DNA from: Mageeibacillus indolicus UPII9-5
GTDB taxonomy: Bacteria > Bacillota > Clostridia > Saccharofermentanales > Fastidiosipilaceae
Reading direction: 5' to 3'
DNA length: 64,000 bases
NCBI RefSeq assembly: GCF_000025225.2
Contig: NC_013895.2
Span: 1 to 64,000 of the forward strand
Shown: positions 94-34,370 of the stretch, piece by piece
Layout: every line of letters starts with the position of its first letter
Position numbering within the stretch: position 1 is the first letter of the stretch
Program-made: the position numbers and the translations under genes
The notes under the pieces: model-generated
The model's database searches: none
Told to the model about the DNA's origin: nothing
What the model saw: only the letters and a program-made list of their open reading frames with translations

Positions 94-1410
94 ATGCCGA
101 TCATTGCTAAAGATTTATGGAATCAAGCTTTAATTAAAATTGCCAAAGAAATTCCGGAAATTACTTTTAAAACGTGGATTGCTCCGCTAAAAGCTGTTTC
201 CTGTGAAGGCGACACTTTTGTTTTAGAAGCTCCTAATGAATTTAATCGTGATCAAGTTAAGCAGTATGAAGCTTTCTTCCGTAATGCTTTAATGTCAATA
301 GTTCCTGTACAATTTCATATTAAATTAACATATGAAGGTGCAGAAACTCCGACAAAGAACACTTTTTCTCTGCCACAGACCTCAATTGAGGGAAATATTA
401 ATCCTGCCTTTACTTTCGATAATTTTATCGTAGGCTCAAGTAATGCACATGCCCATGCAGCATGTGTCTCAGTTGCGCAAAACAGTCGTGTTTTCAATCC
501 CCTATTTTTATACGGCGGTTCAGGATTGGGAAAAACACATTTACTTCATGCCATAGGAAATTACGTAAAGCAACATCAACCTGAAAAACATATTATTTAT
601 GTTCCCTGTGAGCAATTTGTCAATGAATTTATTCGTACTATCAGAGAAAATTCATATGATTCTTTTCGTCAAAAATACCGTAATTGTGATATGTTATTAA
701 TTGATGATATTCAATTTATAGAATCAAAAGAACAGATGCAAATTGAATTTTTCAGCACTTTTAATGCTCTGACAGAAAATGGTAGTAACATAATTATGAC
801 TTGTGATAAACCTCCACACAGTTTATCAAGTTTGGAAGAACGATTGCGTACGCGTTTTGCCAGTGGGGTAATTGTTGACATAAACATTCCTAATTTTGAA
901 ACCAGAGTGGCTATTTTACAAAAAAGAGCCGAATTTTTGAATATTCAGGTATCATACGATATTTTAGAATATATTGCTCACAATTTTGTTTCAAGTATTC
1001 GTGAATTAGAGGGAGCCTTTACGACAGTAATAAGCTACAGTTATATTTCAGGTAAACTTGATTTATCAGTTGCTAAAGCTGCTTTAAACAATTTAATTTC
1101 GCCTTCTAAACGCAAAAGTATGACCCCTGAAACGATAATACCAATCGTGGCCAGATATTTTAATTTCACTGAAGACGAGATTAAATCAAAAAACAAAAAT
1201 AAAGATTTAGCTATTGCTCGACAAGTCACAATGTATTTGTTAACTAAACATAGCGATCTTACATACGAACAAATAGGCAAAATTATCGGCGGTAAACATC
1301 ATTCTACCGTAATGTACGGTTTCAATAAAATTAATGATGAAATTAAAGGAGGAAATCAAACAATAATATCAGCAGTAAATGATCTGAATCAACGCATTTT
1401 AGGTGGTTAA
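94..1410 (+). CDS. dnaA: Chromosomal replication initiator protein DnaA
   Basis: This protein binds DnaA boxes at oriC, forms an ATP-dependent filament, melts the origin and loads the helicase. Its 438 residues are normal for a Firmicute DnaA. An N-terminal domain I of about 85 residues is followed by a short linker. The AAA+ domain has Walker A GGSGLGKTH at about 140-148 and Walker B LLIDDIQF near 200. The C-terminal DNA-binding domain carries the signature GGKHHSTVMYG near 400. It is first in the dnaA-dnaN-recF-remB-gyrB run, the classic Firmicute origin order. The four DnaA boxes just downstream are its expected targets. Confidence 0.98.
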   Translation: MPIIAKDLWNQALIKIAKEIPEITFKTWIAPLKAVSCEGDTFVLEAPNEFNRDQVKQYEAFFRNALMSIVPVQFHIKLTYEGAETPTKNTFSLPQTSIEGNINPAFTFDNFIVGSSNAHAHAACVSVAQNSRVFNPLFLYGGSGLGKTHLLHAIGNYVKQHQPEKHIIYVPCEQFVNEFIRTIRENSYDSFRQKYRNCDMLLIDDIQFIESKEQMQIEFFSTFNALTENGSNIIMTCDKPPHSLSSLEERLRTRFASGVIVDINIPNFETRVAILQKRAEFLNIQVSYDILEYIAHNFVSSIRELEGAFTTVISYSYISGKLDLSVAKAALNNLISPSKRKSMTPETIIPIVARYFNFTEDEIKSKNKNKDLAIARQVTMYLLTKHSDLTYEQIGKIIGGKHHSTVMYGFNKINDEIKGGNQTIISAVNDLNQRILGG

Positions 1411-4295: not shown

Positions 4296-6401
<2,106 letters not shown>

Positions 6402-6497: not shown

Positions 6498-7466
6498 TTA
6501 GTTGTTATTATTTTCCAAAATTTCTAGGATTCTTTCCCGGTCATCAGCTGAATAATAGCTAATTACAATTCTTCCTTTATTGTTTTTTTCACGAAGTTGA
6601 ACCTTTGTTCCAAGTGACTTGGTAAGCAAGTCTTCAATTTCTTGCAAGCTTAATCTGTAAGCTTCACTTTGCGCATCTATTTCTTTTGGAGGAGTTAGTG
6701 CCTTTTTTATCTTTTTTTCAATATCCCGTACTGAAAGATCTTTATTTATCGCTTCTTCAGCCAAACTTAATTGTAGTTCTTCGTTTTTTATTGCCACCAA
6801 GGCACGAGCATGGCCAGCTGATAAATCATCTTGGATTACCAAAGATTGGACAGATTGTGGTAAGCTTAGTAATCTTAAAGTATTCGCAATCGAAGAACGT
6901 GATTTACCAACACGAGCTGAAACTTCTTCCTGAGTTAATTTGTGTTCATCCATAAGACGTGTTAGTGCTTCGGCCTCTTCAATAGCGTTCAAGTCTTGCC
7001 GTTGTATATTTTCAATTAAAGCTTGTTCTAATACTTCAGACTCAGTCAATTCCCTGATTAAAATTGGAACTTCTTTCAGCCCAAGCAATCTGGCTGCTCT
7101 CCATCTCCGCTCTCCGGCAATGATTTTATATTTATCCTTAGCGACTTTGGTTACTAATATAGGTTGAATAATCCCGTTATTTTTTATTGAATTGGCTAAT
7201 TCTTCGAGCTTAATCTTATCAAAAAACTTTCGAGGCTGGTTTTCGTTAGGCATAACAAAATTAATATTTACATTATATACCTTATTTTTTTCGAATAAAG
7301 ATTCTTTACGTTGATTATTATCATCATTAGTTTTGTAGGATGATGACTCATTTTGATTATCGGTTTCTCTTAATAATGAATTTGTTGCTTCATTATTAAG
7401 TAAAGCACCAAGACCACGACCTAAACCTGAAAATTTATTTTTTTCACCTTTTGGTAATTTTGTCAT
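6498..7466 (-). CDS. parB: Chromosome partitioning protein ParB (Spo0J-like)
   Basis: ParB binds parS, spreads as a CTP-dependent clamp and works with ParA in origin segregation. A low-complexity polar N-terminus precedes the ParB/sulfiredoxin domain, which carries the motif AGERRWRAA. A helix-turn-helix (TQEEVSARVGKSRSSIANTLR) and a C-terminal dimerisation region follow. I chose the ATG at 7466 (MTKLPKG). An upstream in-frame TTG at 7478 lies inside GGAGG, so that sequence must be the ribosome-binding site. Perfect parS sites lie upstream of parA at 8504, 8683 and 8860. Confidence 0.95.
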   Translation of the reverse strand: MTKLPKGEKNKFSGLGRGLGALLNNEATNSLLRETDNQNESSSYKTNDDNNQRKESLFEKNKVYNVNINFVMPNENQPRKFFDKIKLEELANSIKNNGIIQPILVTKVAKDKYKIIAGERRWRAARLLGLKEVPILIRELTESEVLEQALIENIQRQDLNAIEEAEALTRLMDEHKLTQEEVSARVGKSRSSIANTLRLLSLPQSVQSLVIQDDLSAGHARALVAIKNEELQLSLAEEAINKDLSVRDIEKKIKKALTPPKEIDAQSEAYRLSLQEIEDLLTKSLGTKVQLREKNNKGRIVISYYSADDRERILEILENNNN

Positions 7467-7587
7467 GTGAACCTCCAATAATACTTCTATAATACCCTTA
7501 TAATAGCCTATTAATACTCTAATGGTACTCTAGTTATTACTTCCTTTATATCTGTTAAATTCCGTTGAGTATGAAATTTAAGCAAAA

Positions 7588-8367
7588 CTAATTTTGAGAC
7601 CAAAATTTTTTACTTCTATCGATTACTTCATTTGCCAAGTCATAATAAGATTGAGCTCCTTTTGAATTGCTATCATAATCATATATAGACTTTCCAAAAC
7701 TTGGAGCTTCACTAAGCTTAATGTTACGAGGAATTACCGTCTTAAAAGTTTTATTTTTAAAAAACTTATTTATTTCGTCATTCACTTGTTGGGCTAAAAT
7801 GGTTCTGCTGTCATACATGGTAACCACAACCCCGAATATTTTTAATGCAGGATTTAGTGATTCGGTCACTAAGCTTAAAGTATCCATTAACTGAGTTACA
7901 CCTTCAAGAGCATAGTATTCACTTTGAACTGGAATTATTACACCGTCAGCCGCAGTTAAAGAATTTAAAGTTAATAAACCCAATGACGGGGGGCAATCAA
8001 TCAAAATAAAGTCATATTTTTCTCGCACCTCGCTTATTGCAGCTTTTAGAATGTATTCTCTTCTGTCTTTATTAACTAATTCGACCTCTCCTCCAGCTAA
8101 ATCAATATTTGAGGGGCATAAACTTAGATTTCTTTGTCCGGTTTGTTTAATAGTATCTGATATTTTTACACCATTTATTATTACATCATAAATGGAAAAA
8201 TCTGAATTTTTATCTATACCTAACCCACTAGTAGCGTTGCCTTGTGGATCCATATCTATAAGTAAGGTTCTTTTAGCTTTGCTAGCTAGATATGCCGATA
8301 AATTTATAGTTGTAGTAGTTTTTCCAACGCCACCTTTTTGATTTACAATAGCTAAAACTAAACTCAT
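7588..8367 (-). CDS. parA: Chromosome partitioning ATPase ParA (Soj-like)
   Basis: This 259-residue Walker-type ATPase has the deviant Walker A KGGVGKTTT at residues 11-19, the switch motif DMDPQGNATSG near 39-49, and LIDCPPSLG near 120. These are typical of chromosomal ParA/Soj. It should form a nucleoid-bound ATP dimer and be stimulated by ParB. The ATG is preceded by GGAGG. The gene is transcribed away from the parS repeats and towards parB, with a 121-bp gap between parA and parB. Confidence 0.96.
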   Translation of the reverse strand: MSLVLAIVNQKGGVGKTTTTINLSAYLASKAKRTLLIDMDPQGNATSGLGIDKNSDFSIYDVIINGVKISDTIKQTGQRNLSLCPSNIDLAGGEVELVNKDRREYILKAAISEVREKYDFILIDCPPSLGLLTLNSLTAADGVIIPVQSEYYALEGVTQLMDTLSLVTESLNPALKIFGVVVTMYDSRTILAQQVNDEINKFFKNKTFKTVIPRNIKLSEAPSFGKSIYDYDSNSKGAQSYYDLANEVIDRSKKFWSQN

Positions 8368-8503
8368 AATTTACCTCCGGTGTTTCATGAAATAATTTTA
8401 GCACATGTAGAAACCTTGTAGGTTACGAAATTTCGACAATTTTCGACAAAAGCGACAAAGCACTTCGTTATCAGATGTTTCACATAAAAGTAAAAGCAAG
8501 AAA

Positions 8504-8519
8504 TGTTTCACGTGAAACA
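8504..8519. promoter_or_regulatory. parS: parS site 1
   Basis: This is a perfect 16-bp palindrome TGTTTCACGTGAAACA, the parS consensus of Firmicutes. It lies 137 bp upstream of the parA start codon. A degraded half-like copy (TGTTTCACATAAAAG) lies 29 bp to its left at 8475, and TGTTTCATGAAATA overlaps the parA leader at 8381. Confidence 0.95.
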
Positions 8520-8682
8520 ATTTGGTATGCGCGAAATTAAAGAAACACATTGTAGTTATAGAAAATTTGAAATTGGTAGAGCCGATCTATACTCCTTGAA
8601 AGCTTTAAGGTATGGCTAAAAAATAAGACCTGGTTGATCGTAACACTTTTTACTCAATTGTTGTGAAAGCAAAAGCAAGAAA

Positions 8683-8698
8683 TGTTTCACGTGAAACA
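8683..8698. promoter_or_regulatory. parS: parS site 2
   Basis: This is an identical palindrome to site 1, 179 bp further on, at the start of repeat unit 2. Confidence 0.95.
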
Positions 8699-8859
8699 AT
8701 TTGGTATGCGCGAAATTAAAGATATTGTAGTTATAGGGAATGTGAAATTGGTGGAGCCGATCAATAGCTCTTTGAAAGCTTTAAAGTATGGCTAAAAAAT
8801 AAGAACTGGTTGATCATAACACTTCTTTACTTAATTGTTGTGAAAACAAAAGCAAGAAA

Positions 8860-8875
8860 TGTTTCACGTGAAACA
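8860..8875. promoter_or_regulatory. parS: parS site 3
   Basis: This is an identical palindrome to sites 1 and 2, 177 bp after site 2. It heads the truncated third repeat unit. Confidence 0.95.
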
Positions 8876-8893
8876 ATTTGGTATGTGCGAAAA

Positions 8894-9318
8894 TAAATGC
8901 GAAGGAAGAAAAAATCCAGACAATATTTAAATTGCTTGGAATTGATAAGTATGCCTTTTAACGTCAGTTAATTTAAAAACAAAATAATTATCGTATAATC
9001 TGTGATTGCTATGATACAAAACAAAGGCTGTTTCAATTTCTCCTTTTAAGCGGAAATATGGGAAAATAAAAGGCGATAAAGCAAAAAAGAGTTTTATTTT
9101 TCTCATCTTGCTAGTGCAATTTTTTTAGGAGTAAGCGGGATTCGTTATATAGATTCTTTCAATCTATAGCAAAAGGGCACAAGTATTCATTGTGTTTCGG
9201 TTCATGTACTTCACAAATTTAACATAAATTGATGTGATAAATAATAAGCATTTTGTTGGTAAAATGTTCATTAGGTAGGTATAATAGATGTACTTAGTTC
9301 TGGTGGAGATAACTTTCT
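8894..9318. other. Gene-free AT-rich stretch after parS repeats
   Basis: I see no gene here. A hairpin with an 8-bp perfect stem (TATAGATT at 9148-9155 with AATCTATA at 9161-9168, loop CTTTC) is present without a T-run. A TATAAT at 9280-9285 is a plausible -10 element for the gene starting at 9319; its -35 (TTGGTA, 9256-9261, 18-bp spacer) is weak. Confidence 0.5.
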
Positions 9319-10210
9319 ATGAGTAACGGAAAAACTTTTAACCTTTTCTTAATGGACGGCGATGTTACTGGGCGTATTAAATGCACGCTTCCTAGTTGGA
9401 GCGGTTTAGCTTATAAAGTTCCTAGAACCTATCTAGATAAATGTAAGAATAGAGCGCAACTCAAGCAGTGCGGCGTTTATTTTTTTGTTTGGCAAAAATG
9501 ATGATGACGAGGATGAAGTATACATCGGGCAAGCGGGCATCAGGAAAAACGGTGAAGGTGTTCTTTTTAGAGTTAATGAACACCTAAAAGACGATTTTTA
9601 CTTTAGTGAAGCAGTTATGTTTACGACAAGTGACAATTCTTGGGGCCCAACGGAAATAAGCTACCTTGAAAACAAATTCACCAACCTTGCTATTGATACT
9701 GATCGTTATAAAGTAAGGAATGGTAATGATCCTAACCCTGGTAATGTGACGGAAGAAAAAGAATCGGAGTTAGAAGTTTATGTTGATCAGTTTAAGATGA
9801 TGCTTGGTGTTCTAGGCTATAAGATTTTTGTGCCTTTGGTAAAAACGCAAACATCTGTAGTTGAAGAGCAAGACGATAATGAACTGTTATTAAGTCTTTC
9901 TCGAAAGATTAAGCGATCGCATAAAACCATAGAAGCACATTGCAAACGAACAAACGAGGGCTTTGTGGTATTAGTAGGAAGCCAGATTGAAGAAACAGAT
10001 TCTAATGCTATCCCAGATACCATAAAAGAGCTAAGACAGCGGTGCAAACAAAATAACGAAATTAAAGACGGCGTGCTCACCAAGAATTATTTGTTTAAGA
10101 GTCCATCTTATGCTGCTTCATTTGTTTTAGGAATGACAACAAACGGTAAGACCGACTGGAAAACAGAAAATGGTATCTCGCTAAAAATGTTAGAAGAAAG
10201 AGAAATATAA
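9319..10210 (+). pseudogene. GIY-YIG family protein with DUF4357-like end, frameshifted
   Basis: The first frame (9319-9501) ends GVYFFVWQK and stops. The second frame continues from about 9485 with FGKNDDDEDEVYIGQAG. Joined across a T run at 9480-9486, the protein reads GVYFLFGKN...VYIGQAG, a normal GIY-YIG nuclease core. Restoring the frame needs six T residues instead of seven. The C-terminus (SPSYAASFVLG...GKTDWKTENG) resembles DUF4357. The intact protein would be about 297 residues. Such proteins are usually lone accessory genes of unclear role. The shift could be real decay, phase variation or a sequencing error. Confidence 0.75.
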
Positions 10211-31721: not shown

Positions 31722-32837
31722 TTATTTGCAGCAGCAGCAAGCTACGTCGTAAGCGGTGATTTCATCAAAGGTGAATCTCGGAACTTCAACAGTCTTGGTT
31801 TCAACTTTCTTGCAAACCAAAGGACGACGAAGAGCTTTTTCGTAAACTTGAGCAGCACCGTAGTATTTTACAGCAGGAGCAGCAAATTCACAGGTCGGTA
31901 CATAGATGGTGAAGTAAGAAGCGGTGTTCGGGACATCGTCTTTCTTAGCAGCATCTTTCTTAGCAGCGGCTTTGCCAGGTACTTTAGCGGTGTTGTCGCA
32001 TAAGGAGCAAGCACGCAGGGTTACTTTGTACTTTTCAGCCAAGTCGTTGATCAGGTTGATCTTGGCGGCAGCTATTTTAGCTTTGGTGGTGAGTTTGGAG
32101 ACAACACCATCAGCTGAGCTTCTTTCGGTATAGAGAGCCAGCTTCTCAAGAACACCAGCATATGCTTTACTGTTAAGTTTGGTTTGTAATGCAACAATTT
32201 CTTTCCCGTTGGCTTTAAGTTGATCTGCTCTGATCTCGCCTTGCAATTCTACTCCCAGGTCGCCGAATTTGACGGATGATTTTTTTGTTAGCCATTCGGC
32301 GATTTCATTATCTCCCGGCTTGCCTTCTAGAATTTTTTCATTCTGATCGATCAGATTTTTGAGCTTTTCGTAATCCGCCTTTAAAAGTTTTTTCCCTTCT
32401 ACAAGAAAAGCACCAGATGTTATACTTTTGCCATCTTTACTAAGTAGATAATAAGAAAAGTTTTTTCCCGGAATTTTTATCCCCTCGGCCAGTTCACGCA
32501 ATTTCGGCGTAGCCAGAATTTCATTGTTGGCGGAATCGAGATCGAATTGTGCTCGGCAACGTGCATCGCCTAATGCTTGAATGGTTTTGGCATCACTAGT
32601 AACAGCATTTAAAGCCTTGTCGTACTCTTTGAGCGAGGCTTTGAAATCGTCGTCAACGAGTTCTTTGTAGATAACATCCTTCTTGACTTCTTTGGTTTCG
32701 GTCGGCAGAGCAAAACCGTAGTCCTTCAGGAGATCGAGCTCATCCTTGCTCCAGTCATCGTTGGCAGCGAAAACGCCGGAAGCAAGAACCATGGACATTG
32801 TCAACACGGCTGACAATACTTTTAATCCTTTGTTCAT
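31722..32837 (-). CDS. Secreted protein A with CCCCK C-terminus
   Basis: I do not recognise this 371-residue family. A Sec signal peptide (MNKGLKVLSAVLTMSMVLA... cleavage near SGVFA) is followed by a charged, helical-looking N-terminal region. The middle (about 118-250) differs from copy B. A Lys/Ala-rich linker (GKAAAKKDAAKKDD) leads to a C-terminal part with Cys at VPTCEF and LVCKK and the last residues ACCCCK. No LPXTG signal or membrane anchor is visible. GGAGG lies upstream of the ATG, and the gene has its own promoter and terminator. Confidence 0.85.
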   Translation of the reverse strand: MNKGLKVLSAVLTMSMVLASGVFAANDDWSKDELDLLKDYGFALPTETKEVKKDVIYKELVDDDFKASLKEYDKALNAVTSDAKTIQALGDARCRAQFDLDSANNEILATPKLRELAEGIKIPGKNFSYYLLSKDGKSITSGAFLVEGKKLLKADYEKLKNLIDQNEKILEGKPGDNEIAEWLTKKSSVKFGDLGVELQGEIRADQLKANGKEIVALQTKLNSKAYAGVLEKLALYTERSSADGVVSKLTTKAKIAAAKINLINDLAEKYKVTLRACSLCDNTAKVPGKAAAKKDAAKKDDVPNTASYFTIYVPTCEFAAPAVKYYGAAQVYEKALRRPLVCKKVETKTVEVPRFTFDEITAYDVACCCCK

Positions 32838-33260: not shown

Positions 33261-34370
33261 TTATTTGCAGCAGCAGCAAGCTACGTCGTAAGCGGTGAGT
33301 TCATCAAAGGTGAATCTCGGAACTTCAACTGTCTTGGTTTCAACTTTCTTGCAAACCAAAGGACGACGAAGAGCTTTTTCGTAAACTTGAGCAGCACCGT
33401 AGTATTTTACAGCAGGAGCAGCAAATTCACAGGTCGGTACATAGATGGTGAAGTAAGAAGCGGTGTTCGGGACATCGTCTTTCTTAGCAGCATCTTTCTT
33501 AGCAGCGGCTTTGCCGGATGCTTTAGCGGTGTAGTCGGCTAAGGAGCAAGCACGCAGGGTTACTTTGTACTTTTCAGCCAAATCGTTGATCAGGTTGATC
33601 TTAGCGGTAGCTACTTTAGCCTTAGTGGTGAGTCCAGAAACGGTAGTATCAGAAGTTCTGAGAGAATTTTCTCCTCCATAAGCTTCTTCAACTTTGGCAA
33701 CTAAAGCGAAGTATTTAGCATCGTACTTCTTAACCGCTTTTTGCAATTCTTCGTAATTTGCTTTAGCAAGATCACCATTTTTTTCGCCTTGAACACCCAA
33801 GAAGGACTGAGCTTGATTTAACTCTTCAGCAGTCATTTTAGTAAATTTTTTGTTTTCTTTAATCAAATCATTGAGTTTCTTGGCGTCGGCAGCAAAATAA
33901 TTACCTTCCGGCACTTTATAAACTTCACTAATTTCAGGCTTTTCGTATTTGCCGTCCTTGGAAGGGAAGCGGTGCGTATCATATTTAGAAACATGTTCAA
34001 TTCCTTGAGCCAAGTCCATGAACTTACGAGTTGCCAGAATTTGGTTGTTGGCGGAATCGAGATCGAACTGAGCTTGGCAACGTGCATCGCCCAAGGCTTG
34101 GATGGTTTTGGCGTCTTTTCCAACAGCCTCCAGGGCCTTGTCATATTCTTTGAGTGAGGCTTTGAAATCGTCGTCAACGAGTTCTTTGTAGAGAACTTCC
34201 TTCTTGACTTCTTTGGTTTCGGTCGACAGAGCAAAACCGTAGCCGCCCTTCTTCAGGAGATCGAGCTCATCCTTAGTCCATTCTGGATTTGCATCAACAG
34301 CGAAAACGCCGGAAGCAAGAACCATGGACATTGTCAATACGGCTGACAATACTTTTAATCCTTTGTTCAT
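33261..34370 (-). CDS. Secreted protein B with CCCCK C-terminus
   Basis: This 369-residue paralogue of protein A has an identical signal peptide, an almost identical first ~110 residues and an almost identical last ~110 residues ending YDVACCCCK. The middle (about 118-255) is hardly alignable, and RACSLCDNT of A is RACSLADYT here. Function is unknown. The mosaic pattern suggests either strong diversifying selection or replacement of the central cassette by recombination. GGAGG precedes the ATG. Confidence 0.85.
   Translation of the reverse strand: MNKGLKVLSAVLTMSMVLASGVFAVDANPEWTKDELDLLKKGGYGFALSTETKEVKKEVLYKELVDDDFKASLKEYDKALEAVGKDAKTIQALGDARCQAQFDLDSANNQILATRKFMDLAQGIEHVSKYDTHRFPSKDGKYEKPEISEVYKVPEGNYFAADAKKLNDLIKENKKFTKMTAEELNQAQSFLGVQGEKNGDLAKANYEELQKAVKKYDAKYFALVAKVEEAYGGENSLRTSDTTVSGLTTKAKVATAKINLINDLAEKYKVTLRACSLADYTAKASGKAAAKKDAAKKDDVPNTASYFTIYVPTCEFAAPAVKYYGAAQVYEKALRRPLVCKKVETKTVEVPRFTFDELTAYDVACCCCK

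Follow-up and report, generated by a model that had tools for sequence, protein, structure and literature searches.

The window analysed in this study comprises the first 64,000 nucleotides (64 kb) of the chromosome of Mageeibacillus indolicus UPII9-5. From its start it carries the genes dnaA, dnaN, recF, a short gene, gyrB, parB and parA, in this order, and upstream of parA a tandem array of parS sites, with the following features:

94-1410, plus strand: dnaA, at the window start, 8.5 kb away from the parABS locus with the array
1417 and 1431: two perfect TTATCCACA boxes, marking the likely oriC neighbourhood
4311-6401, plus strand: gyrB, separated from parA by the parS cluster in relatives
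6498-7478, minus strand: parB (spo0J), with ParB_N, HTH_ParB and ParB_C domains and the GERR CTP motif
7588-8367, minus strand: parA (soj), 259 aa, AAA_31 domain (8.9e-67)
8476-8483, plus strand: half-parS TGTTTCAC, immediately next to the array; may be a decayed parS
8492-8670, plus strand: tandem unit 1, 179 bp, consisting of a parS head of ~50 bp and a spacer
8504-8519, no strand: parS1, perfect 16-bp palindrome TGTTTCACGTGAAACA
8671-8847, plus strand: tandem unit 2, 177 bp, ~90% identity with unit 1
8683-8698, no strand: parS2, perfect TGTTTCACGTGAAACA
8848-8897, plus strand: partial unit 3, parS head of ~50 bp only, 96% identical
8860-8875, no strand: parS3, perfect TGTTTCACGTGAAACA

The array starts 124 bp upstream of the parA start codon. 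The canonical 16-bp parS, the proximity to oriC and the presence of parA together with a parB encoding CTPase, HTH and dimer domains characterise a chromosomal ParABS system. Unlike in relatives, the block of parS, parA and parB (6498-8900) is inverted relative to gyrB, and the GC skew goes negative over this block (-0.127 at 7001-8000). A DUF4357 (GIY-YIG-like) gene adjoining the array (9320-10210) is split over two frames near a T run at ~9481 and represents either a pseudogene or a sequencing error. The 107-aa methyltransferase ORF at 10264-10587 matches the start of the domain only and is probably truncated. Elsewhere in the window, identical short repeats TCTTTCTTAGCAGCA are found at 31939-31973 and 33478-33512, 1.5 kb apart.

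Motif scanning detected three exact copies of TGTTTCACGTGAAACA in the 64-kb window, all of them in the array, and no further match with up to three mismatches elsewhere in the window. Shuffled sequences contained 0.35 parS matches on average, and none of 100 shuffles reached three. Tandem Repeats Finder reported a repeat at 8492-8897 with a period of 177 bp, 2.3 copies, 91% matches and a score of 662. Motif scan, repeat search and shuffles hence confirm three perfect parS within a tandem repeat, as described in a preceding sequence-only reading. The statement that each of the three heads a tandem unit was correct in the number of sites and in their spacing (start-to-start distances of 179 and 177 bp), but only two full units exist. 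The layout is R-S-R-S-R, with three parS heads of ~50 bp, and each unit of 177-179 bp carries a single parS, corresponding to the one inverted repeat per unit of sopC.

The complete chromosome (1,809,746 bp, one contig) contains four perfect parS, namely the three of the array and one at 1806047, ~3.7 kb before coordinate 1 on the other side of the join. All four are located inside ~12.6 kb around dnaA. No copy of the repeat unit surrounds the fourth site, and the whole-genome search for the 178-bp unit, which had been proposed earlier, showed the unit to be confined to the array: the unit-sized matches in the 1,809,746 bp are the two units themselves. The fourth parS is followed, about 65 bp to the right, by a short tandem repeat of 12/25 bp (CCGCTATGGTCT-like) at 1806125-1806184, which is the sole copy in the genome.

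For comparison, par loci of relatives were collected by ParB search of genome contigs; these ParB proteins are 41-47% identical and all come from outside the genus. Genomes of the family and the order have few parS sites near parA, and these often form clusters. Several relatives have parS pairs 24-80 bp apart, and four sites are found within 270 bp in G029 and six within 600 bp in G010. In eight genomes (G005, G007, G010, G011, G021, G029, G189 and G398), gyrB and parA are co-stranded and all or most of the cluster lies between them. The expectation that chromosomal parS are usually scattered is therefore not borne out for this class, in which sites are low in number and short clusters commonly lie upstream of parA. 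The other part of this argument, that parS within a long tandem array are unusual for a chromosome, is supported. In one genome of the same family, G001 (one contig, 1.8 Mb), searches for parA (E <= 1e-40) and for parS (at most one mismatch) both came back empty; ParABS may have been lost there.

Two relatives possess arrays of their own. In G005, from the same family and another genus, the DNA upstream of parA is repeated in tandem 2.5 times with a unit of 187 bp; each unit has two variant parS-like sites, those of the third unit being decayed. All parS-like sites found in G005 have the whole motif changed from the canonical one to TGTTCCACGTGGAACA or close variants. The HTH region of the G005 ParB (contig C43) reads GKNRSSISNAVRIL, compared to GKSRSSIANTLRLL in the ParB of the window, and the changes of motif and HTH could possibly reflect a co-evolved shift in specificity. 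GTTCCAC half-sites are known for Pseudomonas ParB (PMC7022226). In G398, a member of another family, three perfect parS with spacings of 112 and 111 bp lie upstream of parA; its two spacers are ~74% identical and match well in a central block, possibly a sign of constraint on this part.

Spacer similarity within one genome was highest in M. indolicus (G000, z 49), followed by G005 (z 19-27) and G398 (z 19). It was weaker in G010 (z 12, one spacer pair) and G270 (z 6), and spacer self-similarity was absent from G029, G313 and G298. Clusters with no detectable spacer similarity may have other origins. The parS sites themselves are perfect across the compared clusters, G005 with its changed motif being the exception. 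Between genomes, the spacers of the M. indolicus, G005 and G398 arrays share no segment above shuffles, and the search for the unit in relatives found that the array spacer is not conserved in the family. As the spacers of these three arrays are unrelated, the arrays are most simply explained by independent events.

Within the M. indolicus array, an alignment of unit 1 with unit 2 (~180 columns) shows 12 substitutions, of which 9 are transitions, and 3 indels; this makes a simple assembly copy unlikely. All of these differences fall outside the first 51 columns, and parS itself shows none. The 50-bp parS head does not differ between the two full units and is 96% identical in the partial third one, against 86% for the remainder of the unit. 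The ~160 bp of non-parS DNA described as conserved are indeed similar, as is expected for sister copies of a duplication; this is not conservation across species. A search for other signals in the array gave little. RNA folds in the spacer are no more stable than shuffles, with z 2.0 for one strand and 0.4 for the other, promoter-like matches are weak (8 against 4.4 expected) with no clear promoter among them, none of six DnaA-box variants occurs, and Tandem Repeats Finder detected no short iterons. A coding role of the unit was considered and rejected: although every unit offers a reading of parS as MFHVKQFG..., indels of 4 nt and 1 nt shift the frame from one copy to the other. A Pfam search with the array translation gave no domain match. 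The best reading is that the spacer is drifting passenger DNA and that parS is under selection.

Several other explanations were weighed. It is unlikely that the unit contains, besides parS, a further functional site that works jointly with it, be it for ParB, SMC, DnaA or another protein; the sequence-only reading had raised the possibility of a second binding site. The unchanged parS head in units 1 and 2 would fit such a site, and the difference-free 51 columns around parS are significant in a Fisher test (p = 0.004 with parS, 0.026 without parS). The longest-run test, which corrects for the region having been chosen post hoc, is not significant (p = 0.08 with parS, 0.33 without), so that the run outside parS is no longer than expected by chance; this is no evidence for a second element, yet not proof of its absence. 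Because the first 51 columns are free of differences, a small element flanking parS is possible despite the run test. Against a second site also speak the spacer, which is unlike those of other parS arrays within the family or beyond, the fourth parS, which has no such flank, and the lack of a DnaA box in the unit. Quite improbable, too, is a function of the ~178-bp period itself, by which the array would fix the distance between ParB loading sites. Near-regular clusters with no repeated spacers do occur (G313 with 155/163/170 bp, G270 with 181/173 bp), but both genomes came from a search that had selected for spacings of 166-196 bp. Across the order, adjacent parS are 24 to more than 2500 bp apart; spacings of 166-196 bp are found in 7 of 393 genomes and spacings of 106-136 bp likewise in 7 of the same 393. 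With no excess at ~178 bp and no helical phase in all collected spacings, a set that mixes hand-picked genomes and is only indicative, the proposal that the array sets the spacing for ParB spreading finds no support.

An assembly artefact, or a random local duplication that includes parS and has no function, is very improbable. Local tandem duplications are common as such, but the 15 positions at which the units differ show a natural bias towards transitions, the three parS are all perfect despite the drift of the spacer, and similar, independent arrays occupy the same locus in at least two other lineages. It is hardly credible that the array is what is left of a centromere that came from a plasmid or phage and was inserted next to the par genes of the chromosome. 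Arrays of tandem centromere sites are a typical plasmid feature, as exemplified by parS/sopC of the F plasmid with its twelve 43-bp tandem repeats containing 16-bp inverted repeats (PMC6238139). However, searches of 72,556 plasmids and of 50,697 phage records returned nothing that matches the M. indolicus array, and its parS is canonical for chromosomes, its parA and parB are of chromosomal type and the oriC neighbourhood is the usual one.

We therefore consider it likely that the array is a chromosomal parS cluster, i.e. the centromere of a Soj/Spo0J-type ParABS system, which was enlarged by tandem duplication and whose spacer is a drifting passenger. The centromere assignment follows from three perfect parS adjoining parA and parB at a distance of 8.5 kb from dnaA. 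Duplication combined with selection is indicated by the sister spacers, which differ by 15 events where parS differs by none, and duplication in particular by the independent arrays of G005 and G398 and by the graded decay of spacers between parS sites that stay intact. In the order of events that we infer, an ancestral parS upstream of parA would have been duplicated together with ~130 bp of neighbouring DNA, giving parS-spacer-parS-spacer-parS, and selection would hold the parS copies while the spacer drifts.

At a parS site, ParB is loaded as a CTP-dependent sliding clamp, and the complex that results is what ParA and SMC act upon. In M. indolicus, each predicted ParB-binding site would load such clamps, which would slide into the flanks. 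Three loading sites in 372 bp would raise the ParB density at this origin-proximal locus and also over the parA promoter, which is 120-150 to a few hundred bp off. The consequences may concern ParA-driven segregation of the origin, SMC loading and possibly autoregulation of parAB by repression. An in vitro study found that the number of parS raises the condensation force (PMC8299390).

Clusters of parS upstream of parAB and tandem arrays of ParB sites on plasmids are already known. In Myxococcus xanthus, 24 parS are located upstream of parAB (PMC3778016). As in this ParABS system, M. indolicus has several parS near oriC and upstream of parA, chromosomal ParA and ParB, and parS of canonical sequence; its sites sit in a visible tandem DNA repeat. 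With F sopC, the M. indolicus array shares the tandem arrangement and the single ParB-binding palindrome per unit. The two differ in unit length (177-179 bp against 43 bp), in the replicon (a complete chromosome against a plasmid) and in the parS sequence. In addition, the sopC array is placed after sopB, whereas the M. indolicus array is found upstream of parA. Iteron arrays upstream of parAB were described as cisII and cisMP in Deinococcus radiodurans (PMC7671480). These are likewise direct repeats, with binding by the cognate ParB known there and predicted here, but they consist of 18-bp and 14-bp iterons, contain DnaA boxes, function as origins and belong to secondary replicons. Lacking iterons and DnaA boxes, the M. 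indolicus array is not of the cisII type. Similar, too, are the arrays of G005 and G398, which have the same location upstream of parA, parS-bearing units (111-187 bp over the three arrays) and homologous spacers within each array; they differ in their unrelated spacers, and G005 alone has two sites per unit and the variant motif. Our literature search, which was thin on subscription journals, returned neither a chromosomal parS array of long tandem units nor the birth of parS by tandem duplication.

The number of parS sites varies among bacteria. A review of bacterial ParABS lists two questions as open: why this is so although a single site is often enough, and what drives the clustering of parS in evolution (PMC7333895). 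Our results touch on both. The stages of duplication are legible from the sequence, with M. indolicus as a young, G005 and G398 as intermediate and G010 and G270 as nearly erased cases, parS being largely intact; the multiplication of parS thereby becomes testable by census and experiment. At this point we want to caution that conserved-looking DNA between parS sites may merely be recent. It is a tentative idea, which we hold to be possible rather than probable, that chromosomal centromeres of Clostridia repeatedly turn into tandem parS arrays of a plasmid-like form at the parA promoter, where the copy number of the array would allow the dose of ParB loading to be adjusted, with parS born by tandem duplication, then selected, while the spacer decays. 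If true, birth by tandem duplication would account for the clustering of parS. The array illustrates one way in which bacterial centromeres grow, and the relatives of M. indolicus did likewise with other stretches of DNA.
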